A stretch of DNA of 64,000 bases from Prevotella sp. (GTDB lineage: Bacteria; Bacteroidota; Bacteroidia; Bacteroidales; Bacteroidaceae), in the NCBI GenBank assembly GCA_017548605.1, contig JAFYZT010000055.1, positions 19,597 through 83,596 on the forward strand, written 5' to 3'. This document shows positions 1,410 through 32,553 of the stretch, one piece after another (position 1 is the first letter of the stretch; every line of letters starts with the position of its first letter). The translations under genes and the position numbers were made by a program. The notes under the pieces were generated by a model, which had not been told where the DNA came from, made no database searches, and worked only from the letters and a program-made list of their open reading frames with translations.

Positions 1410-4400
1410 ATGAAAAAAGTGCTCAAATGGATTGTCGGCATCATCCTGACGCCCATCCTGCTCTTTTTGCTGCTGCTCATACTGCTCTATATCCCGCCCA
1501 TACAAAACTGGGTGGCACAAAAGGTGGCATCCTATGCCTCGGAGAAAACGGGCATGGACATCAGCGTAGGGCACGTGTCATTGAAATTCCCACTCGACTT
1601 GAGCGTGGAGGATTTCAAGATGATAAAACCCAACGATTCTATTCCCAACCAACGTGACACCATCGCCGACGTGGGCGAATTGGTGGCAAGCGTACAACTC
1701 ATGCCACTCTTCAAGGGAAAAGTGGAGGTGGACGAACTGACGCTTCGCCGTACCAAGCTGAACACCAACGGTTTTATTCCCTCGGCACGCGTGAAAGGAC
1801 GTTTTAACGAACTGAGCGTGGAGAGTCATGGCATAGACCTGAAAGAAGAGGGACTGCGCGTGGACAAGGCGGCTCTCGATGGTGCCATCCTCGACGTGGC
1901 ACTCTCCGACACTGTGCCGCCCGACACCACCGAGAGCAATGCCAAATGGCGCATCCTCGTCGACAAACTGGACATCAAGAAGAGTGATGTCACACTGCAC
2001 ATGCCGGGCGACACGATGGTCGTCGGTGTAGGCATGGGAAAACTGGTGGCGGAGAATGGACGTTTCGACCTGGGCAAGGGGGAATATGCGCTGGGACGCA
2101 TGGACTGGAACGACGGCTCGCTACGTTACGACAATCGTTTCGCACCAAGGGTGAAAGGGTTGGACACCAACCACCTGGCGCTCACGGACGTGAATATAGG
2201 CATCGACTCGCTGCATTACCTCGCGCCCGACATCAGCGTCAACCTGCGCGACTGTAACTTCCGAGAACAGAGCGGACTGGTAGTGAACCACCTGAGCGGA
2301 CCGCTGCACATGGACGGACAGACACTCAGCGTGCCAGCGCTGGAGATGCAGACGGAGCACTCGCGGCTATCGGCACATTTTGAGATGGATCTCAACGCTT
2401 TCGACGACCAACAACCGGGTGAGATGTTCGCACAGGTGGACGGATATGTTGGCAAGGAAGATATCATGCGTTTCGCAGGCGGTGCCATGCCGCCGGCAAT
2501 GGTGAGCAGATGGCCCAACAGGGCGCTGAACGTCAACGGACAGGTGCGAGGAAACCTGCAACGGCTGACCCTGCGGAACATGAACGTGACACTGCCCACG
2601 GCATTCAACATGACCGCCTCAGGAACCATCAATAACGTGACGGACTTTGACAGGATGAATGCCGACGTGACACTCAAAGGTACCACCAACGACCTGAGCT
2701 TCGTGACGGCGGCCCTCGACCCTGCCACGCAGAAGATGATTCGTGTGCCGCAGGGCATAGGTATCGATGGACGGTTCAAGAAGACGGGCAGCCGTTTAGG
2801 TGCAGACTTCACTGCCACGCAGGGTGGGGGAAAAATGGTGGCGAAGGCGAATATCGACACACGGCAGATGGCTTACGATGCCGACGTGAAGGCACAAGCC
2901 TTCCCGCTGCAGAACTTCTTGCCGGGATATCAGCTGTCGCCGCTCACAGGCACCATCACGGCCAAAGGACAAGGGACCGACATCTTCTCACCCTCGACGA
3001 AGCTGCAGGCAAAAGCCAACCTGACGAAGTTCTCGGCGATGGGCTACGACCTCAGCGCCGTACGCCTAAACGCCAATATCGACCGTGGCAGGATGTTGGC
3101 TGATGTCGAGGGGCACAACTCGCTCTTTGACGGTATGTTCAATGTTGACGGACGGGTGAAACGCAACGCCATAGATGCCAATATCTCAGCCGACTTCACA
3201 AGGGCCGACCTCTATAAACTGGGTCTCTCCGACGGACCGATGACGCTGGGTATGTGTACGAACATGTCGGTGAGGACCGACATGAAAAGCTATTACGACA
3301 TCCAGGGCGAGGTGACAGACCTGAAGTTGAACCAACCGGGCAGCGACCTGTTGGCCGAGACTGTTGACCTCGACGTGCTGCTCAACCGCGACACTACACA
3401 TGTGGTGGTAAACAGTGGCGACTTCCGATTGGCACTGGAGGGAAAGGGTGGTTACCAGAAGATTCTCAATAAGGGACAGCGTCTAGGCAAGGAATTCAGT
3501 AGGATGATAGCCGAGCGAAGCATCGACGACGACATCATCAGGGAGAACCTGCCCGATGTGGACATCTATATGAGTGGCGGTGCCGACAATATCATCTCGA
3601 GGATGTTCGAGGAGAAAGGGGTGACCTACAAACAGGTGTATGTAAACATGTATTCATCGAGTGTTGATGGACTGAACGGCGATGTGAAAGTCGATTCACT
3701 GACGGTGAATGACATGCTCTTTGACAGGGTACGCTTCGCCATCAACACTGATTCTGCAGGATTCAAATATAATGCCGAGGTGCAGAACTTCGAGGGTAAT
3801 CCCACCTATGTGTTCCGCGCCAAGGTTGACGGGTCGCTCTTTGATAATGGGTCAGACCTGTCCACGAAGATTTACGATGCCAACGACTCGCTGGGCGTGA
3901 AGCTGGGACTGAAAGCACAGGTGCGTAACGACTCGCTGGTATTGAATTTCTCCGATTTGGAACCGATAATAGGATACAAGAAATTCAAAGCGAACGAGTA
4001 TAATTACTTGCGTCTGGGTAAGAAACAACGACTGGCAGCCAACCTGTACCTCGCGGCTGATGACGGAACGAATATTCACTTATATACCGACGACAATAAC
4101 CTGGATGCCGACCAGGATCTCACGTTGAGTATGCAGCACCTCAACCTCGGCGATATTACCGCCGCCGTTCCCTTCCTACCCGACATCACGGGTATTCTTG
4201 ACGGTGACTTCCACATCGTGAAGACAGAAAAACAACTCACTGTGTCGAGTTCGGTGAGCGTCGATGACTTGACCTTCGAGAAGAATTCACTCGGCGACCT
4301 GAGCACGGAATTCGTATATATGCCAAACGATGACGGAACGCATTATATCGATGCTGTCATATACAGCGACCAACGTGAGGTGGGTACTGTGGTGGGTACC

Positions 4401-6086
4401 TACAACCCGGAAGGGAAGGGTAGTGTAGATGCCGACTTCAACCTGGCGAGGATGCCGCTGTCGTTGCTTAACAGTTTCATGCCTGACCAAATACTGGGAT
4501 TCAAGGGCTATGGCGAGGGAACATTGACCATTAAAGGACCACTGTCAACACCCAATATCAATGGTGAGATACTGCTCGACTCGGCATACATCAATAGTGT
4601 GCCCTACGGTGTGCAGTTGCGTGTGGACAACCATCCCGTGAGGATTGATAATAGCAAACTGCTGTTCGAGGACTTCAAACTCTATGCTTATAATGACCAG
4701 CCGCTGACTCTCAACGGACAACTCAACTTCTCCAACCTCGACCGCATGACCATCGACCTGCGCATGTCGGCCAGGGATTTTGAAATCATCAACGCCAAGG
4801 AGACTCCCAGGGCTGAGGCGTATGGTAGGGCATTCATAAATATGTTTGGTCGACTGCAGGGACCACTTGATGCCTTCCAGATGAAGGGACGAGTGGATGT
4901 GTTGGGTAAGACCGACTTGACATACGTGCTCAAAGACTCGCCGTTGGCCGAAGACACTCGTCTCGACGAACTGGTGCAGTTTGTTGATTTCAACGACTCG
5001 ACAACACAGGTGGTCAGCCGTCCGCCCATCTCGGGACTTGACATGGACTTGACACTGAATGTGGATGAGAGTGCACGCATACGATGTGACCTCAACGCCG
5101 ACCACAGCAACTATGTGGACATCATGGGTGAAGGTAACTTGCGACTGTTGTACAACGTGGCCAATAATTTTAGGATAACCGGACGCTATACGGTGAACAG
5201 CGGAGAGATGAAATATTCGCTGCCTATCATACCGCTCAAGACGTTCACCATAAAGGAAGGCGGCTATCTGGAGTTCCAAGGAGCGCCCGACAACCCGAAA
5301 ATCAACATAACGGCTACCGAGAAGGTGAAGGCGGTGGTGAACGAAGAGGGCGGCGGCTCGAGGAGCGTCGACTTCGAATGTGGCGTGGTTATCAGCAAGA
5401 CGCTGCAAGACATGGGCGTGAAATTCATCATAGATGCACCCGAAGACCTGAGTGTCAGCAGTCATCTGGGCATGCTCTCTGACGAGGACCGCGGACGACT
5501 GGCCGTGGCGATGATTTCCACGGGAATGTATATGGCCGACGGCAATGAGTCGGCACTGTCGATGAACAGTGCCCTAAGCTCCTTCCTGCAGGCGGAAATC
5601 AACAACATCACAGGTAATGCGCTGCGTACCCTCGACGTGAGCATCGGCGTGGACAATGCCACAGATGCCACCGGCAACATGCATACCGACTATTCGTTCC
5701 GATTCGCCAAACGGTTCTGGAACAACCGGCTCCGCGTGGTTATCGGCGGTAAGGTGTCGACGGGCAGCGACGTATATAACAGGAACCAGACCTTCTTCGA
5801 CAATGTGACCTTCGAATACAGACTTAGTCCCAACAGCAACAAATACCTTAAATTGTTCTATGACAGGAGCACCTACGACTGGTTCGAGGGAGAGATAGGG
5901 GAGTTCGGTGCCGGCTTCATGTGGAAACGTAAACTAAGTCATCTGAAGGACATCTTCAACTTCAAGAGTGATGAGCCGACACACAGGTTGAGAACGGACT
6001 CCACTTACCGTTCAAGGAGAGACTCCTCCGCCAATCCGAGAAGAGACTCCACGACGGTTCAACAATCAGACAGACAACGACCATGA
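1410..6086 (+). CDS. tamB: TamB: translocation and assembly module inner-membrane protein
   Basis: A 1558-residue protein with one N-terminal membrane anchor (about residues 4-29, KKVLKWIVGIILTPILLFLL), a very long beta-rich repetitive middle resembling the AsmA/TamB lipid-transfer groove, and a C-terminal TamB domain (old name DUF490, roughly the last 350 residues) ending in a charged, low-complexity tail. TamB spans the periplasm and, with its Omp85 partner, helps insert outer-membrane proteins and move phospholipids. The stop overlaps the start of the next gene (ATGA at 6083-6086), so the pair is translationally coupled. It is preceded by its own promoter and a terminator, so it starts an operon. 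Confidence 0.92.
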   Translation: MKKVLKWIVGIILTPILLFLLLLILLYIPPIQNWVAQKVASYASEKTGMDISVGHVSLKFPLDLSVEDFKMIKPNDSIPNQRDTIADVGELVASVQLMPLFKGKVEVDELTLRRTKLNTNGFIPSARVKGRFNELSVESHGIDLKEEGLRVDKAALDGAILDVALSDTVPPDTTESNAKWRILVDKLDIKKSDVTLHMPGDTMVVGVGMGKLVAENGRFDLGKGEYALGRMDWNDGSLRYDNRFAPRVKGLDTNHLALTDVNIGIDSLHYLAPDISVNLRDCNFREQSGLVVNHLSGPLHMDGQTLSVPALEMQTEHSRLSAHFEMDLNAFDDQQPGEMFAQVDGYVGKEDIMRFAGGAMPPAMVSRWPNRALNVNGQVRGNLQRLTLRNMNVTLPTAFNMTASGTINNVTDFDRMNADVTLKGTTNDLSFVTAALDPATQKMIRVPQGIGIDGRFKKTGSRLGADFTATQGGGKMVAKANIDTRQMAYDADVKAQAFPLQNFLPGYQLSPLTGTITAKGQGTDIFSPSTKLQAKANLTKFSAMGYDLSAVRLNANIDRGRMLADVEGHNSLFDGMFNVDGRVKRNAIDANISADFTRADLYKLGLSDGPMTLGMCTNMSVRTDMKSYYDIQGEVTDLKLNQPGSDLLAETVDLDVLLNRDTTHVVVNSGDFRLALEGKGGYQKILNKGQRLGKEFSRMIAERSIDDDIIRENLPDVDIYMSGGADNIISRMFEEKGVTYKQVYVNMYSSSVDGLNGDVKVDSLTVNDMLFDRVRFAINTDSAGFKYNAEVQNFEGNPTYVFRAKVDGSLFDNGSDLSTKIYDANDSLGVKLGLKAQVRNDSLVLNFSDLEPIIGYKKFKANEYNYLRLGKKQRLAANLYLAADDGTNIHLYTDDNNLDADQDLTLSMQHLNLGDITAAVPFLPDITGILDGDFHIVKTEKQLTVSSSVSVDDLTFEKNSLGDLSTEFVYMPNDDGTHYIDAVIYSDQREVGTVVGTYNPEGKGSVDADFNLARMPLSLLNSFMPDQILGFKGYGEGTLTIKGPLSTPNINGEILLDSAYINSVPYGVQLRVDNHPVRIDNSKLLFEDFKLYAYNDQPLTLNGQLNFSNLDRMTIDLRMSARDFEIINAKETPRAEAYGRAFINMFGRLQGPLDAFQMKGRVDVLGKTDLTYVLKDSPLAEDTRLDELVQFVDFNDSTTQVVSRPPISGLDMDLTLNVDESARIRCDLNADHSNYVDIMGEGNLRLLYNVANNFRITGRYTVNSGEMKYSLPIIPLKTFTIKEGGYLEFQGAPDNPKINITATEKVKAVVNEEGGGSRSVDFECGVVISKTLQDMGVKFIIDAPEDLSVSSHLGMLSDEDRGRLAVAMISTGMYMADGNESALSMNSALSSFLQAEINNITGNALRTLDVSIGVDNATDATGNMHTDYSFRFAKRFWNNRLRVVIGGKVSTGSDVYNRNQTFFDNVTFEYRLSPNSNKYLKLFYDRSTYDWFEGEIGEFGAGFMWKRKLSHLKDIFNFKSDEPTHRLRTDSTYRSRRDSSANPRRDSTTVQQSDRQRP

Positions 6087-8428
6087 ACAGGCTTCACACA
6101 TATATATCATCCATCACCCTGCTCGCCATGACATGTGTACTGGCGGCATGCTACTCTACAAGAGGACTGGAGGAGGGCGAGGTGCTCTATACGGGCATTG
6201 ACGACATAGTTTATGAGAACTATGAAAAGAACGACCATGCCGTATATGTTCAGGAAGAGGTGGATGCGGCTCTTGCCTGCCCACCCAATGGAGCATTTAT
6301 GGGTAGTTCAAAAGTGAGGATGCCGTTCCCCATAGGATTCATGGTGTGGAATGCATTCTCAAAGTCGGAGTCCTCTTTCGGCAAATGGATGACGAAGACC
6401 TTTGGCAAAGCTCCGGTGACGGTGGCATCGGTAAATCCCGAGATGCGCAGCGTGGTGGCTTCATCGGTGCTCAAGTCACATGGCTATTTCCACGGCAACG
6501 TGACTTCGTACACCAAGCAGGGAAGTAACCCCAAGAAGCAGAAGATAGGCTACCGTGCCGACATGGGACACCTGTTCCTGCTCGACAGCATTGAATATGT
6601 GAACTTCCCGCCCGAGGCACAGGAAATCATCGACAGCACATGGAAGGAACGAGAGATATACAAAGGTGCTCCCTTCGACATCGTGTCGCTCGATGCGGAA
6701 CGTTCACGTCTCTCTGACCTGTTCCGCGACAATGGCTTCTTCTACTACCAGCCGGGTTACGCCTCTTATCTGGCAGATACCGTGGCACGTCCGGGCTATG
6801 TGCAACTAAAACTGCAATGCTTGGACAGCTTACCGCCGCATGTAATGAAAAAATGGTACATCGGAAAGATTGACCTCACACTCAGAAAATCGTTCATGGA
6901 GAAGGCTGACAGCATACACAAGGGCAGACGCATAACGGTGCATTTCAGTGGAAAGAAAATGCCAGTGAGGAGGAGCGCCCTGTACAGGCAGCTGAAGTTG
7001 CGACCACGTCAGTTGTACAGCTACGGCGACTATCTCGAGACGGCCAATAACCTGTCGAACATGGGTATCTTCAGCATGGTCGACTTTAAGTTCACACCAC
7101 GTGATTCCACCTTCTCCAGCGATTCGCTCGACGTGGCTATCAACTGTATGTTCGAAAAACCTTACGATTTCTACGTGGAGACGAACCTGACAGGAAAGAC
7201 TACAGGATTCTTAGGACCACAGGTGGTGGTGGGTCTGACAAAACGCAACACGTTCGGTGGGGGCGAGAAACTGGACATACGTCTGCATGGGTCGTACGAG
7301 TGGCAGCTCGGTAAAAACTACGGTGATAACGACGTAAGCATCAATTCGTATGAATATGGCGGCGAAGTGTCGCTCGAATATCCCAGGTTGCTGCTGCCGT
7401 TTGAAAGCTTATGGGGAAGTAAACAGCGGCGTAGGGTGCGACGGTTCTTTATGAACCCATCAACAACCATCAAGGCCAGTTCGAGCATCATCAACAGGGC
7501 TGGCTATTTCACTCGGCATATCGTGTCGGGAGAACTGACATACAATTTCCAGACATCGCATAACTTCAAACATAAGTTGAGTCCGCTGGTGCTGGAATAC
7601 AACTATTTGCGACGGATGTCTGATGAATTTGCTTTGGTGCTTGTGGATAATCCATATCTTTTGATGGCCATGATGGACCAGTTTATTCCAAAACTGCGCT
7701 ATACGCTGTCGTACACGAATAAAGACACGTCGAGATGTCCTATATCATGGGAGACAACCATCAGTGAGGCGGGCAACCTGCTGTCTTTAGGATATATGGC
7801 CTTTGGTAAGAAATGGAACGAACAGGAGAAGAGCATGTTTAACAATCCTTATGCGCAGTTTATCAAGTTCGAGACCGATTTCACAAAGACATGGAAGGTG
7901 GGCGACTATTCTGATTTGGTGGCACATGCCAACCTGGGCATGGTATATGCCTACGGCAACTCTGAATGGGCTCCATATACCGAACAATTCTATGTTGGTG
8001 GTGCCAACAGCATCAGGGCTTTCACGGCAAGGACCATCGGACCGGGTGACTACTACTTGCCGAAGGAAGACCGTAAGTATTCGTATATGGACCAGATGGG
8101 TGACATGAAACTGCTATTCAACCTTGAATACCGTAACCGGCTGGTGAGCAATCTTTATGGAGCCGTCTTCCTCGATATGGGTAATGTATGGACCTTGAAA
8201 TACGATGAATACCGCCCCGAGGCACATTTCAAATTCAATAATTTCTTCAAGCAGATGGCTGTGGGAACAGGTGTGGGACTGCGCTATGACCTCGACTTCT
8301 TCGTCATTCGACTCGACTGGGGTATCGGACTGCATGTGCCCTATGAAACAGGTCACTCGGGATTCTATAACATCGACAAGTTCTGGCACGCACAACGCTT
8401 GAACCTCGCCATCGGATATCCATTCTAA
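6083..8428 (+). CDS. tamL: TamL: lipoprotein Omp85 (BamA/TamA-type) outer-membrane assembly factor
   Basis: A 781-residue Omp85 protein. The N terminus is a lipoprotein signal with lipobox VLAAC (Cys23), which separates the Bacteroidota TamL type from non-lipidated TamA. POTRA-like segments follow (to about residue 370), then a 16-strand barrel (bacterial surface antigen domain) closing with an aromatic end (IGYPF). The family forms a barrel that inserts other barrel proteins, here together with TamB, whose gene overlaps it by 4 nt. The overlap fixes the start codon. Pairing with tamB makes a general BamA less likely. Confidence 0.9.
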   Translation: MNRLHTYISSITLLAMTCVLAACYSTRGLEEGEVLYTGIDDIVYENYEKNDHAVYVQEEVDAALACPPNGAFMGSSKVRMPFPIGFMVWNAFSKSESSFGKWMTKTFGKAPVTVASVNPEMRSVVASSVLKSHGYFHGNVTSYTKQGSNPKKQKIGYRADMGHLFLLDSIEYVNFPPEAQEIIDSTWKEREIYKGAPFDIVSLDAERSRLSDLFRDNGFFYYQPGYASYLADTVARPGYVQLKLQCLDSLPPHVMKKWYIGKIDLTLRKSFMEKADSIHKGRRITVHFSGKKMPVRRSALYRQLKLRPRQLYSYGDYLETANNLSNMGIFSMVDFKFTPRDSTFSSDSLDVAINCMFEKPYDFYVETNLTGKTTGFLGPQVVVGLTKRNTFGGGEKLDIRLHGSYEWQLGKNYGDNDVSINSYEYGGEVSLEYPRLLLPFESLWGSKQRRRVRRFFMNPSTTIKASSSIINRAGYFTRHIVSGELTYNFQTSHNFKHKLSPLVLEYNYLRRMSDEFALVLVDNPYLLMAMMDQFIPKLRYTLSYTNKDTSRCPISWETTISEAGNLLSLGYMAFGKKWNEQEKSMFNNPYAQFIKFETDFTKTWKVGDYSDLVAHANLGMVYAYGNSEWAPYTEQFYVGGANSIRAFTARTIGPGDYYLPKEDRKYSYMDQMGDMKLLFNLEYRNRLVSNLYGAVFLDMGNVWTLKYDEYRPEAHFKFNNFFKQMAVGTGVGLRYDLDFFVIRLDWGIGLHVPYETGHSGFYNIDKFWHAQRLNLAIGYPF

Positions 8429-8445
8429 GGGGAACCTGCGAATAA

Positions 8446-8496
8446 TTGTTAATTATGAATAGTGAAATGTGAATAGTGAAATGTGAATAGTGAATT
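8446..8496. repeat. Near-tandem GTGAAATGTGAATA phrase repeat
   Basis: Three imperfect copies of a roughly 14-nt unit (GTGAATAGTGAAAT) lie between tamL and the next gene, just upstream of its -7 element. Related GAATTGTGAATTG wording recurs at 30508-30538. Confidence 0.7.
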
Positions 8497-8511
8497 ATTC
8501 CTTTTTTTCCG

Positions 8512-8519
8512 TACCTTTG
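8512..8519 (+). promoter_or_regulatory. -7 element of the nucleotidyltransferase-nrnA unit
   Basis: TACCTTTG matches TAnnTTTG and lies 33 nt before the ATG. No clear TTTG is seen at the -33 position. Confidence 0.5.
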
Positions 8520-8552
8520 CAGGATAATTCATAAACATAATACTTCGAAGAT

Positions 8553-9464
8553 ATGAAACCAACGTTATTGCTGCTGGCTGCCGGCATGGGTAGCCGATAT
8601 GGAGGCTTGAAACAACTCGATGGACTGGGGCCCAACGGGGAGACGATTATGGACTATTCCATTTATGATGCCATCAAGGCGGGATTCGGAAAGATAGTGT
8701 TCGTCATCAGGAAGGATTTTGAGCAGGATTTCCGCGATAAGATTCTCTCGAAATACGAGGGACATATTCCTGCAGAGTTGTGCTTCCAAGGCCTCGACGC
8801 TCTGCCCGAAGGGTTCAGCGTGCCCGAAGGAAGGCAGAAACCGTGGGGTACCAACCATGCGGTGATGATGGCGGCGAAAACTATCAAGGAACCGTTCTGC
8901 GTCATCAATTGCGATGACTTCTACAACCGCGATGCGTTCATGGTCATCGGTAAGTTCCTCAGCGAACTGCCCGAAGGAAGCAAGAATAATTATGCCATGG
9001 TGGGATTCCGCGTGGGTAACACGCTCTCGGAGAACGGTACCGTGGCTCGTGGTATCTGCTCCACCAATGATGAGGGTAACCTGACCACCGTGGTGGAACG
9101 TACGGAAATCATGAGGGTCGATGGCCCCGTGTGCTATAAAGATGAGCAGGGCCAGTGGGTGGCTGTTGACGACAATACACCTGTGTCGATGAACATGTGG
9201 GGATTCACACCCGACTATTTCGACCATTCCGACGCGTATTTCCGCGAGTTCCTCAGCGATCCGAAGAACATGGAGAACCTGAAAGCGGAATTCTTCATCC
9301 CGCTCATGGTGAACAAACTCATCAATGAGGGAACATCGACGGTGAAAGTGCTTGATACCACATCGAAATGGTTCGGCGTGACCTATGCTGCCGACAGACA
9401 GGCCACCGTGGAGCGTATCCAGCAACTCATCGACGAGGGTGTGTATCCGCAGAAACTGTTCTGA
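8553..9464 (+). CDS. Sugar-phosphate-type nucleotidyltransferase
   Basis: A 303-residue protein that opens with the nucleotidyltransferase signature LAAGMGSRYGGLKQ (residues 7-20), where GxGxR and the Lys bind the NTP phosphates. INCDDFYN (about 111-118) carries the metal-binding Asp pair. This is the GT-A fold of NTP-transferases such as GlmU and RfbA. The family is common in Bacteroidota, but the sugar substrate is not established by sequence. nrnA follows after 3 nt, so the two are probably cotranscribed. No acyltransferase domain is fused, which argues against a GlmU or GCD1-type enzyme. Confidence 0.8.
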   Translation: MKPTLLLLAAGMGSRYGGLKQLDGLGPNGETIMDYSIYDAIKAGFGKIVFVIRKDFEQDFRDKILSKYEGHIPAELCFQGLDALPEGFSVPEGRQKPWGTNHAVMMAAKTIKEPFCVINCDDFYNRDAFMVIGKFLSELPEGSKNNYAMVGFRVGNTLSENGTVARGICSTNDEGNLTTVVERTEIMRVDGPVCYKDEQGQWVAVDDNTPVSMNMWGFTPDYFDHSDAYFREFLSDPKNMENLKAEFFIPLMVNKLINEGTSTVKVLDTTSKWFGVTYAADRQATVERIQQLIDEGVYPQKLF

Positions 9465-9467
9465 GAA

Positions 9468-10511
9468 ATGGAGCCTATCCGTCTTGATTTACTCAATGAG
9501 CAGGAACTTGTCGCTCTCTCCGGGATTATCAACGCGGCAGGGAAAATAATCATCACCTGTCACAAGAGTCCCGATGGTGATGCCCTGGGGGCATCGCTGG
9601 CATGCGCCGAATGGCTCCGGACAAAAGGCAAGGAACCGCTCATCGTGGTGCCCGACATGTTTCCAGACTTCCTCAGATGGTTGCCCGGCGTGGAGAAAAT
9701 ACGCCGTTATGACAAGCACAAGGAGGAGTTGGACAAGGCTTTCGAAGAGGCCGACACCATCTTCTGCCTCGATTTCAATGCCACCGACAGGGTGGGGTTG
9801 ATGCAGAAGACGCTGGAAGAGAATAAAGCGACGAAGGTGCTCATCGACCATCATCTGGAACCGACGGTGAATGCCGAAGTGAGCATCTCCCATCCCGAGA
9901 TGTCAGCAACGTGCGAACTGCTCTTCCGTATCATGTGGCAGATGGGTGACTATGACAACATGAGCAAACATTGCGCCATATCTCTCTATTGCGGAATGAT
10001 GACCGACACGGGAGGATTCACCTATAACTCCACACGAAGCGAGATATTCTATATCATCGGACAACTGTTGGCAAAAGGTATCAACAAAGACAAAATATAC
10101 AGAAGTGTATATAATGTGTACAGCGATTGGTGCATCAGGCTGAGGGGATATGTGATGTATCAGAAACTCAACGTGCTGCACGATGAACATGCTACCTATT
10201 TCGCCATCACCAAGGAAGATATGGCGCGTTTCCGTTTCAAGAAAGGCGATGCCGAGGGATTGGTGAACGAACCGCTGCGCATCAAAGGCATACGGTTGTC
10301 GATATCGTTGCGCGAAGACACGGAGGTGCCGGGGCTGGTATGGGTGAGCATCAGGTCAACGGACCATTATTATTGCGACGAATTGGCGCGGACGTTCTTT
10401 AACGGCGGTGGGCATGCTAATGCTGCTGGCGGCAAACTCTTCGGAGGAATACAAGATGCGGAACGCGTCACCCGTGAAGCCATCAAGGCTTTTGCGCAGA
10501 AATATTATTAA
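9468..10511 (+). CDS. nrnA: NrnA-type DHH/DHHA1 phosphoesterase (nanoRNase / pAp phosphatase)
   Basis: A 347-residue DHH-superfamily protein. The N-terminal DHH domain has SPDGDALG (about residues 34-41), CLDFNATD and the defining LIDHHLEP (about 125-132). The C-terminal DHHA1 domain has FNGGGHANAAGG (about 308-319). NrnA degrades short RNA oligonucleotides and dephosphorylates 3'-phosphoadenosine 5'-phosphate, in the cytosol with Mn2+. The start is set by the 3-nt gap after the upstream gene. Length and motif order fit NrnA rather than RecJ, which is longer. Confidence 0.9.
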   Translation: MEPIRLDLLNEQELVALSGIINAAGKIIITCHKSPDGDALGASLACAEWLRTKGKEPLIVVPDMFPDFLRWLPGVEKIRRYDKHKEELDKAFEEADTIFCLDFNATDRVGLMQKTLEENKATKVLIDHHLEPTVNAEVSISHPEMSATCELLFRIMWQMGDYDNMSKHCAISLYCGMMTDTGGFTYNSTRSEIFYIIGQLLAKGINKDKIYRSVYNVYSDWCIRLRGYVMYQKLNVLHDEHATYFAITKEDMARFRFKKGDAEGLVNEPLRIKGIRLSISLREDTEVPGLVWVSIRSTDHYYCDELARTFFNGGGHANAAGGKLFGGIQDAERVTREAIKAFAQKYY

Positions 10512-25894: not shown

Positions 25895-27058
25895 TTAGTT
25901 AAAGTAATAGTCCATACGGCTGTTAAACAGGGTCTCTGCCTCGGTGATGGATTGCTTGATAAGTTCCTTTTGTCGCTCTATCGCCTCTATCTTCTCAGCA
26001 AAGGATTGTTGGAGGGAGAGAGGGGGAAGTATAATGGAAAAACACCTGAGAGAACTCAATCCCACTGTTTTTTGGGCAATACCCGTGGCTATATCATCCG
26101 CCATAAACTTAACAGATTCACACAAAGCCCAATAACATACAAATGTGGTATTAAGGTATTCTCTATTAGGTCTCAATAAAGCAATGTGACGTTGAAAACA
26201 AAAAGGTTTATCATCCTTTACTTGTAAAGGAATTCCATAAGAGCCTGTTACTGTATACAACAAATCTCCAATTCGTGCCTTTCGCTCGTCTTTTAAATTA
26301 TTATAATATTCAATAGGAACGAAGAAAGTGTTATCGAAATCTATCTCCCTACTATCCTTATTAATATTTGATATCGTAATAAACGGTATTCCTTTTTCTG
26401 CTTTTGGTGGTGGCATATGGTCGCCGTCAGTAATATGGTGGCAAACTTCCCCTAACTTCTTCACCTCCCATCCTTTTTCATTCTCCACAGGGTCTCCGAA
26501 CATATCATAGAAGATGGACTGTGCGAGAAGGTCGTATTCTTTCAGTTGTGCTTTTTTCTTCTCGATGATACTCGAAAGAAGGTCAAGTTCAGAAACGATA
26601 CGCTCTTGAACAGGGAGGGGAGGATATGCAAAAACATTCGTAGAGATGCTTTTTTTGTTTAATGTCATTCCCATTACAGCCTTGTTTGCCCCTAACCATT
26701 TATATCCTTTTAGATAGTAATAAACGAACTCAGAAGAAATAACTCCTTTTTGTATTGGAGTGAATGACATAATTGCTTCATTAGTAAACAAATCCTTTGC
26801 TGCAATAGCGCACCTTCCAACCGATAGTTTAAAACTCATTATAACAGTCCCTTTCTTAACAATCTTTATGTTAGATTCAGAAACGGCTTTATCTGTTATT
26901 TTTTCTTTGGAGGTGTCTATATATTGGTGCTGTATATCTGATATTGAAACCCATGTGTTCTCCCCTCCCCAATACAATGGATTGTCTCTACTTGGAGTTT
27001 TGCCCATTTGCAAATCAAACACCTCAGCAAACTTCTTATATTCCCATCCTTCCCTCAT
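25895..27058 (-). CDS. hsdS: Orphan type I restriction-modification specificity subunit (HsdS)
   Basis: A 387-residue HsdS with two target-recognition domains (about residues 1-150 and 195-350), each followed by a conserved helical spacer: LPVQERIVSELDLLSSIIEK (about 155-175) and SLQQSFAEKIEAIERQKEL near the C terminus. In a complete system HsdS picks the bipartite DNA target for the methylase HsdM and nuclease HsdR. Neither is in this window: the sequence up to the rpiB fragment is non-coding, and the gene downstream is an unrelated membrane protein. It could be a leftover, or supply an alternative specificity to a system elsewhere. Its AT-rich composition differs from housekeeping neighbours. 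Confidence 0.88.
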   Translation of the reverse strand: MREGWEYKKFAEVFDLQMGKTPSRDNPLYWGGENTWVSISDIQHQYIDTSKEKITDKAVSESNIKIVKKGTVIMSFKLSVGRCAIAAKDLFTNEAIMSFTPIQKGVISSEFVYYYLKGYKWLGANKAVMGMTLNKKSISTNVFAYPPLPVQERIVSELDLLSSIIEKKKAQLKEYDLLAQSIFYDMFGDPVENEKGWEVKKLGEVCHHITDGDHMPPPKAEKGIPFITISNINKDSREIDFDNTFFVPIEYYNNLKDERKARIGDLLYTVTGSYGIPLQVKDDKPFCFQRHIALLRPNREYLNTTFVCYWALCESVKFMADDIATGIAQKTVGLSSLRCFSIILPPLSLQQSFAEKIEAIERQKELIKQSITEAETLFNSRMDYYFN

Positions 27059-27094: not shown

Positions 27095-27181
27095 CAACTA
27101 TTTTGCTATAAGCGTGAAAAATATAGAAAAAAACGACTAACAGATGGATGAGAAAAGAAATGCAAAAGTGTGAACCATATA

Positions 27182-27215
27182 GTTTAAAAAGGTTCGGGTT
27201 CAAGTAGTATTTGAA
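27182..27215. repeat. TTCGAA-core repeat, copy A (diverged)
   Basis: A 34-nt match to the repeat at 28748 and 29823 with about seven substitutions. Its last 10 bases plus the following TCACCAAAA match instead a second GTATTCGAA site at 29927-29944. Copy A therefore looks like the product of joining two sites that are 70-80 bp apart next to copy C. Confidence 0.75.
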
Positions 27216-27305
27216 TCACCAAAAAATTCTCTTAAAAAATGACATTGCGCTCGTTGGAGGACATCCAAATGATTGATTATGGTTGATAATCATTTTGTCA
27301 ATACC

Positions 27306-27349
27306 ACGAGGAGCCATTTTCCTCTTCAAGACGGGAAATGGCTCCTCGT
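27306..27349 (-). terminator. Terminator downstream of the rpiB fragment
   Basis: The stem ACGAGGAGCCATTT / AAATGGCTCCTCGT is homologous to the terminator after intact rpiB (30002-30045). Stem bases differ between the copies in matched pairs, so pairing is kept in both. Confidence 0.75.
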
Positions 27350-27369
27350 TATATTGCTATGTGCGAGTG

Positions 27370-27669
27370 TTATATAGGAATCTTGTCGATGCGGCGCTGG
27401 TGACGACCACCTTCGAAGTCGGTGGCGAAATATTCGTCCATAATTTTACGGGCCATCTCCTCATCGATGAAACGACCGGGCATGACAAGCACATTGGCAT
27501 CATTGTGCTGACGGATGAGATGGGCAATCTCGGGAATCCAGCACAGACCGGCACGGATGCTCTGGTGCTTGTTGAGCGTCATACTGATGCCTTCGCCGCT
27601 GCCACAGACAGCAATGCCGGGAAATACCTCGCCATCCTCGATGCCGCGTGCCAGGGCATGACCGAATTC
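27370..27669 (-). pseudogene. rpiB: Displaced 3' fragment of rpiB
   Basis: The sequence is about 98% identical to bases 30067-30366 of intact rpiB and encodes the last ~99 residues, from FGHALARGIEDGE to the stop, ending DKIPI instead of DKIPV. Homology stops abruptly at GCATGACCGAA: the first ~45 codons and the promoter side are missing, so it cannot make RpiB. It lies 2.4 kb from the intact gene, same orientation, with HicAB and a membrane gene between them. This arrangement resembles a gene end displaced when an element integrated into rpiB. Confidence 0.85.
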
Positions 27670-27772
27670 GCGGATAGGTAACTCCGGCCCGCGATAGCAA
27701 AAAAGACCCAGAGCCGTGTCGTGTGGCTTTTACACATCACACCTTGTCAAGAAGAGCCTTATTTTGCCCATA

Positions 27773-27785
27773 ACCTTTAAAAGGT
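27773..27785. promoter_or_regulatory. Possible HicB operator
   Basis: The inverted repeat ACCTT-TAA-AAGGT lies 31 nt upstream of the hicA -33 element. HicB antitoxins bind such palindromes for autoregulation; binding here is inferred only. Confidence 0.3.
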
Positions 27786-27815
27786 ATTAAAAATATTACT
27801 TTTGTTTGCGGTTTA

Positions 27816-27847
27816 TTTGGTAGGTGGTATTATTTTTATTACCTTTG
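27816..27847 (+). promoter_or_regulatory. Consensus promoter of hicAB
   Basis: TTTG (27816-27819), 20 nt, then TACCTTTG (27840-27847), 28 nt before the hicA ATG. It lies inside the island, so the module carries its own promoter. Confidence 0.7.
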
Positions 27848-27875
27848 TATCGTCAAGTAATAAAACATCGCAGCT

Positions 27876-28070
27876 ATGAAAAGATACAAAGTTAAAGAGA
27901 TTATCAAACTTCTTGAAAGCGATGGATGGTATCTCTCTGCGACAAAAGGAGACCACAGACAGTTCAAGCACCCGAAGAAGCCAGGGAAAGTGACGGTGAG
28001 GGGAAAAGACAGTGAGGTCTTGAATCAGTTCTTACTGAACAGCATCTGGAAACAAGTGGGGTGGAAATGA
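27876..28070 (+). CDS. hicA: HicA-type mRNA interferase toxin
   Basis: A 64-residue protein of usual HicA length with a double-stranded RNA-binding-like fold. The signature is LLESDGWYL, then GDHRQFKHP with the catalytic His27, then GKVTVRGKDSEV and a short C-terminal helix. HicA cleaves mRNA independently of ribosomes and stops growth until HicB neutralises it. The antitoxin gene follows 53 nt downstream in the usual hicA-hicB order. It has its own promoter and sits in the accessory cluster next to rpiB, typical of a mobile addiction module. Confidence 0.88.
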   Translation: MKRYKVKEIIKLLESDGWYLSATKGDHRQFKHPKKPGKVTVRGKDSEVLNQFLLNSIWKQVGWK

Positions 28071-28123
28071 CCAGCCTTGCTTATCGACAACAACAAACCA
28101 AAACAAAAGACAAAAATACAACA

Positions 28124-28537
28124 ATGGAAAAAATCAGAGTAGACGTACAATGGTGCGACAAGAATTTCGGAGCCTCTCTTGGCGAGAATGTGCCCGGTGC
28201 CGTAGTGGTAACCGCAAAGACATACGAACAATTGCTCAACGATGTGCCTGAATCTCTTCGTTTCCATGTGGAGGGCATGCTTGCCGATGGCGACGACGTG
28301 CCCCAGTGGTTGCGCAACGGGGACTATGAGCTGGAATACAACCTTGTTGACACAGCCACCATGCTCCATGCCTTTGAGCCTCTTTTGTCGCTTGCCGCCA
28401 TTAGCAGGGTCTCCGGTATCAACCAGCATCAGCTATCCCACTACGCCAACGGATTGAAGCAGCCCCGCCCGCGGCAACGGCAGCGCATCGTGGACGGCAT
28501 CCACAAGATTGGTCGTGAACTATTGGCTGTTGTATAA
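28124..28537 (+). CDS. hicB: HicB-type antitoxin with C-terminal helix-turn-helix
   Basis: A 137-residue protein. The N-terminal domain (MEKIRVDVQWCDKNFGASLG, then VVVTAKTYEQLLNDVPESL) is the partial RNase H-like HicB fold that covers the toxin. The C-terminal ~50 residues (SLAAISRVSGINQHQLSHYA) form an XRE-like helix-turn-helix for autorepression. The start at MEKIRV is chosen because the in-frame extension upstream overlaps hicA and shows no conserved sequence. It neutralises HicA and probably represses the hicAB promoter. Confidence 0.82.
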   Translation: MEKIRVDVQWCDKNFGASLGENVPGAVVVTAKTYEQLLNDVPESLRFHVEGMLADGDDVPQWLRNGDYELEYNLVDTATMLHAFEPLLSLAAISRVSGINQHQLSHYANGLKQPRPRQRQRIVDGIHKIGRELLAVV

Positions 28538-28747
28538 GTTTTATTGTTTGACGACATTGCTTAGCGTCAGCTTGGCGGGGCATCACTGTCCCGGTCTTTT
28601 TCTTACTATCGTTTTCCTTTATTGTCCAGCCACCGCAGGAACCAAATGAAGAGGCCGACGACAACAATGGTGACAGCCACGTCGACGGCGCGTTTTCACT
28701 GCTCCTAAAACGAAGGCTACTTGACCGCTTCTTTTGTTCAATTTGTC
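28538..28747. other. Spacer after hicB with a possible terminator and a membrane-helix remnant
   Basis: A weak hairpin (CGGGG...TCCCG) followed by a T-rich stretch at 28576-28605 may end hicAB. On the minus strand, 28606-28689 reads AVDVAVTIVVVGLFIWFLRW then a short basic tail and stop, with a TGA just upstream and no ATG: probably the remnant of a membrane segment. Nothing else recognisable. Confidence 0.45.
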
Positions 28748-28783
28748 GTTTAAAACGGTTTGGGTTCAGGTGGTATTCGAACC
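28748..28783. repeat. TTCGAA-core repeat, copy B
   Basis: A 36-nt sequence (GTTTAAAACGGTTTGGG, then TTCAGGTGGTATTCGAACC) identical to copy C at 29823-29858. It separates the HicAB block from the membrane-protein block. Confidence 0.85.
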
Positions 28784-28918
28784 TTGAAAATGCCCAAATT
28801 CAATCCATACAAAAAGAAGTTTACCGATATGCAACTTATCAATGTTATAGGTCCTCACATAAAGAGGTAAGACAAATCCCATTTTTTCTTCAAATCATTA
28901 CAAGTAAATAATGAAAAG

Positions 28919-29623
28919 ATGCTGATCATTTCCCTTATCATATTTGCCATAATTGCTTTGATCGTCGCCGCTGTACTCGGACTCCTTAGTTCCATAGTGG
29001 CATGGAGGATTGTGCGACGAAGGAACTGGAGTCACAAACGGTTGATTGTGATTCTGGCTGCCATCACTCCTGCCTTGTTCATTGGCATGGAGGCCGTCTT
29101 GGGACTCATCGGAAGTGTGTATATCTCCGAGACGAAAGGTGTCGACTTGGGCTTCGGTGATTATTGGGAGGCACCACTTTCCGCAAGCCACTATCTTTCT
29201 GCTGTCGACATGCCGGAAACGGCAACTATCGGAAATCGAGAAGATGGTCCTTTCCAAGAAGGCAGTGGCGGTGTAGAGCATTTATGGGTAGTGGATGATA
29301 GCGTGTTCGTGACTATAAAAGACAAGGCAATCTCATCGGAAATGAATGACTCTTCCTTATCCACCTATTCGTTATATCTCTTTAATCGTCAAGGCAATGG
29401 GATAGATACGCTTTTGAATAGAGCAGACACACTGAAGTTGACAGAAACCCTACGAAACCGAAATCTGGATATAAAAACTGCTTTGACTCCGGATGACTAT
29501 TTTACCCAAGCACAAAGGGAGGCTCACAAAGTAGAAAGCCCGCTTCGACATACAATCGTAATCGTGACGATATTGGCATTGTGGGCTTTGCTCATTCGAT
29601 TCATTAAGAAAAGAAGTTGTTGA
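28919..29623 (+). CDS. Membrane protein of unknown function
   Basis: A 234-residue protein with two N-terminal membrane helices (about 2-28 and 43-65), a soluble domain of about 140 residues (YWEAPLSASHYLSAVDMP onwards) and a C-terminal helix (about 212-229) ending KKRSC. No family is recognised. The gene lies between repeat copies B and C. Its TGA stop is followed, in the same frame and without another stop, by a second ORF of 44 residues, so the gene may have lost its original end or be one of two tandem units. Confidence 0.6.
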   Translation: MLIISLIIFAIIALIVAAVLGLLSSIVAWRIVRRRNWSHKRLIVILAAITPALFIGMEAVLGLIGSVYISETKGVDLGFGDYWEAPLSASHYLSAVDMPETATIGNREDGPFQEGSGGVEHLWVVDDSVFVTIKDKAISSEMNDSSLSTYSLYLFNRQGNGIDTLLNRADTLKLTETLRNRNLDIKTALTPDDYFTQAQREAHKVESPLRHTIVIVTILALWALLIRFIKKRSC

Positions 29624-29659
29624 CTTGAAGATAAAAAAGGAAGCAAAAAGAAGTCTGTA

Positions 29660-29794
29660 ATGTATGGAATGGCATTGTTTGCCTTGGCCCTTATAGGCAT
29701 TGTATTTGTGCCGACATTCTACCTTGAAAATGGTGACAGGTTGGACTGGCAACTGAGCAAATGGACTATTAGTGAGCGAGGCTTCAGCAACTAA
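29660..29794 (+). CDS. 44-residue membrane ORF in frame with the preceding gene
   Basis: It starts MYGMALFALALIGIVF, one membrane helix, then a polar tail (ENGDRLDWQLSKW) and a stop. It begins 36 nt after the upstream stop in the same frame, with no stop in the gap. It may be a separate small membrane protein or the severed C terminus of the gene before it; the sequence alone does not decide. Confidence 0.4.
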   Translation: MYGMALFALALIGIVFVPTFYLENGDRLDWQLSKWTISERGFSN

Positions 29795-29822
29795 TCTTCG
29801 GCAAAATGTGAAAGTATGGAGG

Positions 29823-29944
29823 GTTTAAAACGGTTTGGGTTCAGGTGGTATTCGAACCCTTTAATTGGTAATTTTTTGAGGCAAAGATAGTAGTAATTTA
29901 GCCGAAAAATGGCAAAGCAAACTTTAGTATTCGAATCACCAAAA
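29823..29944. repeat. TTCGAA-core repeat, copy C, with a second half-site
   Basis: Copy C proper is 29823-29858, identical to copy B. A second GTATTCGAA occurrence at 29928-29936 is followed by TCACCAAAA. A minus-strand TATCTTTG (29889-29882) between them could be a promoter facing away from rpiB. Confidence 0.75.
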
Positions 29945-30001
29945 GAACTATCCTTAAGAGATTGTATGTTGGTCATTACCAACAGGGAGACTGAAGAGAC
30001 G

Positions 30002-30045
30002 ACAAAGAGCCATTTCCCTCTTTAAGACAGGAAACGGCTCTTTGT
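30002..30045 (-). terminator. Terminator of the tkt-rpiB transcript
   Basis: The stem ACAAAGAGCC...GGCTCTTTGT, with an inner TTTCC/GGAAA part, lies 22 nt after the rpiB stop. It is homologous to 27306-27349, with paired substitutions. Confidence 0.8.
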
Positions 30046-30066
30046 TATATTGCTACAAACTGAGCG

Positions 30067-30507
30067 TTACACCGGAATCTTGTCGATGCGACGCTGGTGG
30101 CGACCACCTTCGAAGTCGGTGGCGAAATATTCGTCCATAATTTTACGGGCCATCTCCTCATCGATGAAACGACCGGGCATGACAAGCACATTGGCATCAT
30201 TGTGCTGACGGATAAGATGGGCAATCTCGGGAATCCAGCACAGACCGGCACGGATGCTCTGGTGCTTGTTGAGCGTCATACTGATGCCTTCGCCACTGCC
30301 GCAGACAGCAATGCCGGGAAATACCTCGCCATCCTCGATGCCGCGTGCCAGGGCATGACCGAAGTCACTGTAGTCGCACGAGTCTTCGCTGAAGGTACCA
30401 TAGTCCTTGTAAGCATAACCTTTCTCTTCGAGGTATTGCTTGACGAACTGTTTCAAAGCATAGCCAGCATGGTCGCTGGCTATGCCGATGGTCTTGAATT
30501 CCATCAT
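30067..30507 (-). CDS. rpiB: Ribose-5-phosphate isomerase B
   Basis: A 146-residue RpiB/LacAB-family protein: IASDHAGYALK near the N terminus (phosphate-binding Asp-His), active-site Cys in AVCGSGEG, NKHQSIRAG and the C-terminal FEGGRHQRRID. It interconverts ribulose-5-phosphate and ribose-5-phosphate in the cytosol. It follows transketolase by 33 nt on the same strand, so the two feed the non-oxidative pentose phosphate pathway together. Its last 300 bp exist a second time at 27370-27669. If an element inserted here, the present 3' end could be the incoming copy; protein function looks intact. Confidence 0.93.
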   Translation of the reverse strand: MMEFKTIGIASDHAGYALKQFVKQYLEEKGYAYKDYGTFSEDSCDYSDFGHALARGIEDGEVFPGIAVCGSGEGISMTLNKHQSIRAGLCWIPEIAHLIRQHNDANVLVMPGRFIDEEMARKIMDEYFATDFEGGRHQRRIDKIPV

Positions 30508-30538
30508 AATTGTAAATTATGAATTGTGAATTGAAAAC
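30508..30538. repeat. AATTATGAATTGTGAATTG phrase in the tkt-rpiB gap
   Basis: The 33-nt spacer between transketolase and rpiB is almost wholly made of this phrase, which is close in wording to that at 8446-8496. Confidence 0.55.
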
Positions 30539-30540
30539 TC

Positions 30541-32553
30541 TTAACCCAGCAGCTTCTTCACCTGCTCGTACACGTTCTGGCCGTTATAGCCCAGTTTCTC
30601 ATCGAGCACTTTGTAAGGAGCGGAGAAACCGAAGCTCTGCAAGCCCCAAACCGTGCCGTCAGCACCTACGAGACCCTCAAGGGTGACAGGCAGACCGGCG
30701 GTCATACCGAACTTCTTCTTGCCAGCGGGAAGCACGCTCTGCTGGTATTCCTTCGGCTGGTTGCGGAACAAGCCCTCGGAGGGAACGCTCACGATGCGTA
30801 CCTTCACGCCGTCTTCGCGGAGCAGTTTGGCACCGGCCTCGAGGGTGGACACCTCAGAACCAGAGGCGAGCAGGATGACATCATAGTCATCATCGCTGCC
30901 GGCCACCACATAGGCACCCTTCATGGCCTGCATGTAGTCGTTGCCTTCGGGCAGCATGTCGATGTTCTGACGTGAGAAGATGAGAGCCGTCGGTGTGTCA
31001 GTGTTCTCCATAGCCATACGCCAGCAGACAGTGGTCTCTTCGGCATCGGCGGGACGAACAACGAGCATCGAGTTCTTGCCGTGGTGGTTCTTCAGTTTCT
31101 CCATCAGGCGGATTTGTGCTTCCTGCTCCACAGGCTCGTGGGTAGGACCATCTTCACCTACACGGAAGGCGTCGTGTGTCCAGATGAACTTCACTGGCAG
31201 CTCCATCAAGGCAGCCATACGCACGGCGGGTTTCATATAGTCGGAGAATACGAAGAAGGTGCCGCAGGCGGGGATGACACCACCGTGGAGGGCCATACCG
31301 ATGCAGCAGCAAGCCATGGTGAGTTCGGCCACACCAGCCTGGAAGAACGCACCGGAGAAGTCACCGCGCACGATATCGTGGGTCTTCTTCAGGAAGCCGT
31401 CAGTCTTGTCGGAGTTGCTCAGGTCGGCAGAGGCGCAAATCATGTTAGGCACCTCTTCGGCCAACACGCTCAGCACGGTAGCCGAAGCACCACGGGTGGC
31501 GGCACCGGCCTTCTGCTGTACCTTGTTCCAGTCAATCTTCGGAGCCTTGCCACTGAACCACTCTTCGAGTTGCTTGGCCTGCTCAGGATGACCTTTGGCC
31601 CACTCAGCCTTGGCAGCATAGCGCTCGGCGCAGATTTTCTTCAGTTCTTCAGCACGCTTGGCGTACATTTCTTTCACTTCTGGGAAGATGACGAAGGGGT
31701 TCTCCGGGTCGGCACCCAGGTTCTTCATCGTCTGCACGAAGTTGTCACCGCCGAGCGGTGCACCGTGGGTGGCGCAGTTGCTCTCATAGCTTGAGCCGTC
31801 GGCCTTGCGGGCACCCTTGCCCATCACACAGTGGCCGATGATGAGCGACGGACGCTCCTTCTCTGCCTGTGCTTTCTTGATGGCTTCGCGAATCTGATCC
31901 ACGTCGTTGCCGTCAATCTTCTGTACAAACCAGCCCCATGCTTCGTATTTCTTAGCAGTGTCTTCGCAGGTCACCACTTCGGTCTTAGTGGAGAGCTGTA
32001 TGTCGTTGGCATCATAGAACATGATGAGGTTGTCGAGTCCGAGGTTACCAGCGATACGGCCAGCGCCCTGCGAAATCTCTTCCTGCACACCACCGTCGGA
32101 GATATAGGCATAGATGGTCTGGTTCATTACGTTGCCCAGACGGGCCTTGAGGAATTTGGCAGCGATGGCGGCACCCACGGCGAAGGTATGTCCTTGGCCG
32201 AGCGGACCGGAAGTGTTCTCAATGCCGCGTGCTATCTCACGCTCGGGGTGTCCAGGAGTGACTGAACCCCACTGACGCAGGTTTTTCAGGTCTTCCAGTT
32301 CATATTTACCGATGAGGGCAAGTTGTGAGTAGAGCATCGGAGCCATATGGCCGGGGTCGAGGAAAAAGCGGTCACGACCTTCCCATGCGGGATTCTCGGG
32401 GTCATAGACCAGGAATTCGCTATAGAGGGTGTTGATGAAATCTGCACCACCCATGGCGCCGCCGGGATGGCCACTCTTGGCTTTTTCAACCATTGCAGCT
32501 GCAAGGATACGAATGTTGTCAGCTGCCTTGTTCATTACTTTGTTGTCGTTCAT
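30541..32553 (-). CDS. tkt: Transketolase
   Basis: A full-length 670-residue transketolase. The thiamine-pyrophosphate domain has GHPGGAMGGAD, GPLGQGHTFAVG and the Mg2+ loop SDGGVQEEISQGAG with the usual N-containing follow-up (YDANDIQLS). The middle pyrimidine-binding domain contains TMACCCIGMALHGG and THDAFRVGEDGPTHEP, which matches the conserved substrate and cofactor loop. It moves two-carbon units between pentose phosphates and glycolytic intermediates. In this operon (abfA-tkt-rpiB) it absorbs xylulose-5-phosphate made from arabinose. Confidence 0.95.
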   Translation of the reverse strand: MNDNKVMNKAADNIRILAAAMVEKAKSGHPGGAMGGADFINTLYSEFLVYDPENPAWEGRDRFFLDPGHMAPMLYSQLALIGKYELEDLKNLRQWGSVTPGHPEREIARGIENTSGPLGQGHTFAVGAAIAAKFLKARLGNVMNQTIYAYISDGGVQEEISQGAGRIAGNLGLDNLIMFYDANDIQLSTKTEVVTCEDTAKKYEAWGWFVQKIDGNDVDQIREAIKKAQAEKERPSLIIGHCVMGKGARKADGSSYESNCATHGAPLGGDNFVQTMKNLGADPENPFVIFPEVKEMYAKRAEELKKICAERYAAKAEWAKGHPEQAKQLEEWFSGKAPKIDWNKVQQKAGAATRGASATVLSVLAEEVPNMICASADLSNSDKTDGFLKKTHDIVRGDFSGAFFQAGVAELTMACCCIGMALHGGVIPACGTFFVFSDYMKPAVRMAALMELPVKFIWTHDAFRVGEDGPTHEPVEQEAQIRLMEKLKNHHGKNSMLVVRPADAEETTVCWRMAMENTDTPTALIFSRQNIDMLPEGNDYMQAMKGAYVVAGSDDDYDVILLASGSEVSTLEAGAKLLREDGVKVRIVSVPSEGLFRNQPKEYQQSVLPAGKKKFGMTAGLPVTLEGLVGADGTVWGLQSFGFSAPYKVLDEKLGYNGQNVYEQVKKLLG

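Follow-up and report, generated by a model that had tools for sequence, protein, structure and literature searches.

A fossil Cas1-Cas2 array beside rpiB in Prevotella sp. and related loci that probably store gene-sized DNA without a neighbouring effector

Chromosomal integrons are arrays of gene-sized cassettes, toxin-antitoxin genes among them, with a promoter at the recombinase end, and prophage e14 integrates at icd. For type II systems of clustered regularly interspaced short palindromic repeats (CRISPR), an excerpt of PMC6895254 states that the repeat holds the ruler for the second integration site and that Cas1 and Cas2 are both needed for efficient integration. Casposons, as described in excerpts of PMC6977970 and PMC7786333, have a Cas1 integrase without interference genes that handles long DNA; in the latter excerpt Cas2 is recruited to fix the length of the insert integrated by Cas1. 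Here we analyse a block of DNA at the 3′ end of rpiB in 64,000 nucleotides of Prevotella sp. (contig JAFYZT010000055.1, positions 19,597 to 83,596; this whole stretch is the window), in which three 36-bp repeats separate DNA cassettes and are followed by a leader and the 5′ part of a type II-like cas1 (~32 codons). The block represents a fossil Cas1-Cas2 locus, because its cas1 stops after these codons and is for the most part missing, its leader is shortened, no cas2 is seen at the locus and the window's own genome (92% complete) gives no Cas1 match of E ≤ 1e-40. Judged on sequence, the locus was probably an effector-less one that stored gene-sized DNA.

Loci of this kind resemble the type II CRISPR adaptation module, from which their individual parts derive, in a type II Cas1 (TIGR03639) with Cas2 behind it, in the leader, the repeat length and the mostly distal decay. 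They depart from type II CRISPR in inserts of 175-3483 bp instead of short regular spacers, in an array on the 5′ side of cas1, in a divergent Cas2 without the canonical FDLP stretch and in having no Cas9 beside them. With chromosomal integrons they share the array of gene-sized cassettes, toxin-antitoxin genes and a promoter-like element at the recombinase end, but Cas1-Cas2 stands in place of a tyrosine integrase, the repeats measure 35-36 bp, and among the cassettes are gene fragments (one from inside hisC), where integrons have whole genes with attC. No tyrosine recombinase was found among the cassette open reading frames (ORFs) given to Pfam, flanks and genomes not having been searched for it. 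The excerpted casposon papers describe a similar Cas1 integrase without interference genes and acting on long DNA; unlike casposons, the arrays have cas2 and a type II Cas1, and numerous unrelated inserts are gathered at one leader-repeat site. Their cassette ends share only a preference for A, compared with the terminal inverted repeats of casposons, and a family B DNA polymerase, a casposon feature, was absent from the ORFs given to Pfam, which were not every ORF. In open-access PMC (without preprints and most subscription papers) no title or abstract beginning describes such arrays. Because this limited search was negative and the arrays fit neither type II CRISPR nor integrons, we count the system as new; gene-cassette Cas1-Cas2 arrays look like an undescribed system of gut bacteria.

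In the window, three copies of the repeat, all in one orientation, start at 27182 (6 mismatches), 28748 and 29823 (expected 0 in 100 shuffles). Positions 27663-28784 are 99.5% identical to the most distal cassette, with the next repeat, of G206 (G labels denote genomes and L labels sequence loci; G206 and G387 are related species). This is the only cassette that the window and G206 share, as expected if arrays grow at the leader. The array is made up as follows.

27182..27217, + strand: 36-bp repeat, leader-distal, decayed (6 mismatches)
27241..27309, + strand: older, more decayed cas1 remnant, probably resident (82.6% to G206 cas1)
27663..28747, no strand: HicAB cassette, truncated on the distal side (comparison with G206)
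27876..28070, + strand: hicA (PF07927, 3e-17)
28061..28537, + strand: HicB-like ORF (position only)
28748..28783, + strand: 36-bp repeat, intact (repeat search)
28784..29822, no strand: leader-proximal cassette, 1039 bp (among G000, G206 and G387, only here)
28919..29623, + strand: membrane-protein ORF within the leader-proximal cassette (hydrophobicity)
29823..29858, + strand: 36-bp repeat, intact, leader-proximal (repeat search)
29859..29909, no strand: leader remnant, 51 bp, compared with 118 bp in G206 (alignment)
29910..30004, + strand: cas1 5′ remnant, ~32 codons (29891-30004 98.2% to G206)

A preliminary description of this DNA had named HicAB and a membrane protein here: HicA is borne out by its Pfam match, its HicB partner is placed by position and matches no Pfam family, and the membrane protein is strongly hydrophobic, with no Pfam match. 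A second fossil array lies on contig C36 of the same genome (L036, ~8006-9794), with one cassette and a cas1-start remnant, near a butyrate-kinase-like gene; at the equivalent place G387 has a full-length cas1 and four cassettes.

The intact form of the locus comprises cassettes between repeats, a leader, cas1 and a divergent cas2; neither cas9 nor another effector gene was found beside the arrays. In G206 the order is tkt, rpiB, a full-length type II cas1 pointing towards rpiB, leader and array, at the same chromosomal place as in the window; the divergent cas2 is also at this locus, and 12 repeat copies, all forward, occupy one 12.6-kb stretch beside cas1 and rpiB. A pattern search for the 36-bp repeat gave matches in 3 of 249 genomes of the genus; for one of the three, G202, the single match was not confirmed as the repeat. 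Of 398 genomes of the genus, 85 matched the G206 Cas1 at E ≤ 1e-40, and four matches stand out at 74-100% identity, the next being at most 54% identical. As a control, one script was run over 25 cas1 loci: four belong to the new clade, and the 21 others, taken from among many canonical cas1 loci, comprise 19 with ordinary arrays (65-77 bp period) and two with none. A pattern-based scan of 84,980 species (one genome each) returned 11 loci: ten belong to the new clade, and L144, a canonical locus with 47-bp repeats about every 77 bp, was set aside. Source titles of the ten name a ruminant animal or stomach in five cases and RUG, which we take to mean rumen genome, in four; one names no source. 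Nine arrays in seven genomes were counted, holding 11 cassettes in G206, four in G387, six in L139, three each in L141 and L147 (one genome), two each in L146 and the window and one each in C36 (same genome as the window) and L142. Viral contigs contain no match to the Cas1 clade or to the 36-bp repeat. In L142, 92 identical bases (repeat and leader start) stand at 2-93 and 4345-4436, and the leader end seems duplicated.

Cas1 of the clade matches the type II family TIGR03639 (3e-82 in G206, 3e-76 in L139 and 2e-82 in L141). The six longest clade sequences form one group with 100/100 support and a long branch in a tree of 34 rows, from which four short clade remnants were left out, and Cas1 is open and conserved at 65-91% identity across several species. 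A system of solo Cas1, lacking Cas2, was ruled out by a Cas2 ORF behind cas1 in two relatives and in further loci. This divergent Cas2 scores above the Pfam cut-off in L139 and L141, and the G206 protein matches Cas2_II of PADLOC (8e-12); clade Cas2 proteins are 31-33% identical to three canonical Cas2, whose FDLP stretch they lack. Cas9 was sought in nine genomes with clade members or remnants, some of them only 78-81% complete: six gave no match, two a match below the cut-off and one, G387, a match. One of the matches below the cut-off, at a contig edge (91.8 of 100 bits), is perhaps a broken gene, and Cas9 of G387 lies on another contig with its own canonical cas1-cas2. In L143 (339-1109), the cas1 reading frame continues into the C-terminal portion of cas2, which looks like the outcome of an internal deletion.

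The repeats, 35-36 bp long, are nearly identical within an array and differ in sequence between loci. From the end of the leader-proximal repeat to the start of cas1 there are 116-120 bp in the six loci measured, an intact leader being about 118 bp long, and a promoter-like CAAAG-N-TA element facing the array was seen by inspection in 10 of 12 aligned leaders. Decay is mostly distal: the most distal repeat counted has six mismatches in the window, seven each in G206 and L141 and nine in L147 (where a repeat at 4450 with 12 mismatches was left out of the count), and it is slightly decayed in G387 and L142. Between the repeats of the nine arrays lie 33 cassettes of 175-3483 bp (median 602), none under 100 bp; this number includes cassettes bounded by decayed repeats and stood at 27 before more of these repeats were found.

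In G387 the cassette nearest the leader is a copy of part of a gene: its 414 bp come from inside hisC of the same genome (98%, 8 mismatches, no gaps), and the intact hisC aminotransferase gene is found elsewhere, beside a histidinol dehydrogenase gene. In L146 one cassette ends, on its leader side, within a sugar nucleotidyltransferase gene. MuF polymorphic toxin genes of temperate phages are a known family, according to excerpts of PMC5576092 and PMC11699363. Two cassettes, in G206 and G387, resemble the genes described there: each holds the C-terminal portion of a Mu F-like head gene with small ORFs behind, the cut lying at a different place in each. They differ in that the captured cargo lacks the N-terminal part; any toxin or immunity role of this cargo is putative. 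The Mu F-like frame continues for at least 60 codons past the cut in 21 of 21 viral relatives examined (from 80 viral loci fetched, of 222 relatives). A Mu-like phage remnant on contig C4 of the window's genome shares two stretches with this G206 cassette, one of 541 bp (99%) and one of 819 bp (93%). This remnant (L256, 5691-12457) has two Mu F-like genes together with portal and virion morphogenesis genes, parts of it being 93-99% identical to G206 cassettes.

A coiled-coil gene starts at cassette edges in G206, G387, L139 and L145, and a small hydrophobic ORF adjoins this start in G206, L139 and L145. That the starts in these last three are those of tape-measure genes was not borne out, only weak Pfam coiled-coil matches being obtained; the G387 fragment alone has a counterpart among phage ORFs, one with a tail domain (36% across 74% of the query). 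HicA is encoded in cassettes of the window and G206 and an antitoxin-type helix-turn-helix protein in G387; further cassette ORFs, named by inspection, are putatively HicB-like and HigB-like. The cassette genes are in mixed orientation. Searches against phages and viral contigs gave little: there was no match for the G206 array in phages and plasmids (megablast), for three G387 cassettes or the window membrane protein in phages, or for the coiled-coil start in viral contigs; the L139 cassettes had one weak match in phages, and of two small membrane-protein families one had no match in viral contigs and the other one weak match. PADLOC returned weak matches only for the cassette proteins. The leader-proximal cassette of G206 is also its largest (L079, 9845-13327, 3483 bp) and holds several whole ORFs, one of which looks by inspection like a plasmid replication protein and has no Pfam or PHROG match. 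A 348-bp stretch of G206 between ordinary genes (L272, 9543-9890) is 99.7-100% identical to part of a G387 cassette.

Positions 3 to 5 of the cassette ends, read inwards, are enriched in A. The base stands at position 4 in 38 of 64 ends (19/32 on each side), a level reached at any of eight positions in 0 of 5000 within-cassette draws, and in 37 of 64 ends with 36-bp repeats throughout (0/5000 draws); both ends of the window cassette 27218-28747 were left out, one being a recombinant joint and the other shared with G206. The same preference at both ends would follow from one enzyme treating both alike.

In the mechanism that we propose, the substrates of Cas1-Cas2 are long double-stranded pieces of phage or host DNA (0.2-3.5 kb), both ends of which would be joined across the leader-proximal repeat, and this repeat would thereby be duplicated as in CRISPR adaptation; control of repeat length would have been kept and control of insert length not. 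Integration by Cas1-Cas2 and growth at the leader would thus be the processes behind arrays in which anatomy, mostly distal decay, the copy origin of one cassette and the end preference are directly visible. If true, a kilobase-integrating Cas1-Cas2 clade would mean that the lengths of repeat and insert are determined independently, would supply an enzyme able to write large DNA into a single site and would raise the question of bacterial self-vaccination with whole genes.

Several observations weigh against this proposal. No acquisition event was observed. A source in the own genome was found for one of the 22 cassettes tested (G206 0/11, L139 0/6, G387 1/4, window 0/1). The A preference emerged from the very data on which it was tested, and it is weaker in the 23 cassettes between well-kept repeats (24/46 ends; 58/5000 draws). 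Cas2 of G206, G387 and L143 falls below the Pfam cut-off; L140, L143 and L145, left out of the array count, show a single candidate repeat each; the middle repeat of L146 is more decayed than its distal one, and a decayed repeat was not found in L139. Each species is represented by a single genome, in many cases a metagenome bin, and some of the clade genomes are only 78-81% complete.

The preliminary description had started from a duplication of the rpiB 3′ end, and this is confirmed as a 300-nt direct repeat (27365-27664 and 30062-30361, 97%), the last 300 bases of rpiB (30067-30366) differing from 27370-27669 at nine positions. The sharp break of homology that it placed at GCATGACCGAA is likewise present, and so is the duplicated terminator hairpin (84%). 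Its TTCGAA repeat is indeed duplicated, but it merges two separate things, the 36-bp repeat in three copies and a cas1 start, TATTCGAATCACC, in two. Remnants of transfer RNA were ruled out as the origin of the TTCGAA repeats: ARAGORN finds no transfer RNA in the window. Copy 1 sits 2.7 kb from rpiB, with HicAB and the membrane-protein ORF between.

27303..27359, no strand: terminator hairpin, copy 1 (repeat comparison)
27370..27669, − strand: displaced rpiB 3′ fragment, copy 1 (9 differences in 300 to copy 2)
29999..30055, no strand: terminator hairpin, copy 2 (repeat comparison, alignment)
30067..30507, − strand: complete rpiB (PF02502, 4e-55)

For this duplication an element of the e14 type had been suggested, which would have attached at the rpiB 3′ end, provided the gene with a new end and later lost its integrase. 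The topology fits, the inserted tract is foreign, and foreign, decayed DNA did enter at the rpiB 3′ end and left an rpiB fragment, but an integrase-bearing island is very improbable: Pfam detected no integrase in the ORFs submitted to it, what was carried in is a repeat array associated with cas1, the alignment shows a short microhomology, CGAA, at one joint, the G206 array is at the same place without an rpiB duplication, and the G387 and C36 arrays lie elsewhere. Nor does the site appear to be used recurrently, since among 60 genomes searched, 52 of which match rpiB, a second, partial match occurs only in the window's own genome. We can scarcely credit a simpler origin: either the repeat would be a mobile sequence dispersed through the genome, with ordinary chromosomal DNA lying between its copies, or rpiB would simply have been duplicated in tandem. 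The second array on C36 would suit a dispersed repeat, against which all 12 G206 copies face one way on one stretch and the hisC piece lies exactly between two repeats; against tandem duplication, the DNA separating the two rpiB copies resembles another species far more closely than the flanking DNA does. The repeats might also be recombination sites of an integron- or pdif-like system, with a tyrosine recombinase, circular cassettes and cas1-cas2 as bystander. Gene-sized cassettes, toxin-antitoxin genes and near-identical repeats do recall chromosomal integrons, and one cassette occurs in two species; yet the distance from the first repeat to cas1 across the leader is constant though repeat sequences differ, some cassettes are gene fragments without a site of their own, and no recombinase was found among those cassette ORFs that were scanned with Pfam, so that we hold this improbable.

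Two further readings accept capture by Cas1-Cas2 and concern what the cassettes are for. They may bring no benefit, being random fragments that persist through chance and toxin-antitoxin addiction; this is quite possible, though we stop short of calling it probable. Gene pieces, self DNA and mixed gene orientation agree with it, as do the several decayed loci (window, C36, L142, L143, L146 and L147), whereas the open and conserved Cas1, the promoter-like element kept in most leaders and the independent capture of Mu F-like genes in two genomes speak for some use. Alternatively, Cas1-Cas2 might store pieces of invading Mu-like phages big enough for whole genes, the newest of which the leader promoter would express, giving superinfection exclusion or toxin immunity. 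Putative cargo of this sort would be the small membrane proteins, the genes behind Mu F-like toxin domains and the toxin-antitoxin pairs; we regard such captured-gene immunity as rather unlikely.

The second copy of the rpiB end most likely arose by recombination of array-bearing donor DNA into the rpiB 3′ end, to go by alignments with G206. Leader and cas1 remnant of the window are 98-99% identical to G206, and 30002-30141 is identical over 140 bp; beyond 30141, in rpiB and tkt, identity is about 90% (89.8% for 30002-31813 as a whole). Copy 1 differs from G206 at five sites within its first 34 bases, where copy 2 agrees with it, and adjoins its own, more decayed cas1 piece (27241-27309, 83% to G206). 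Because the tract is G206-like, copy 1 diverges and an older cas1 piece adjoins it, array-bearing DNA would have entered a locus that already held a dead copy of itself. The donor DNA, a G206-like array with part of cas1 and the rpiB 3′ end, would have recombined within rpiB: one exchange would lie inside the rpiB 3′ end, and the other joint would connect the resident rpiB fragment to the truncated HicAB cassette by the CGAA microhomology. Campbell-type integration of a circle by one crossover would fit as well as this one-sided homology with a microhomology joint. At three of the nine sites that differ between the copies, beyond 30141, it is copy 1 instead of copy 2 that matches G206, which makes a donor other than G206 itself probable; both the circle and the one-sided model would need a further donor strain to explain these sites.

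Directly beyond the distal repeat of the window lies the gene for a type I restriction specificity subunit (25895-27058, PF01420); G206 has a different gene at this place.

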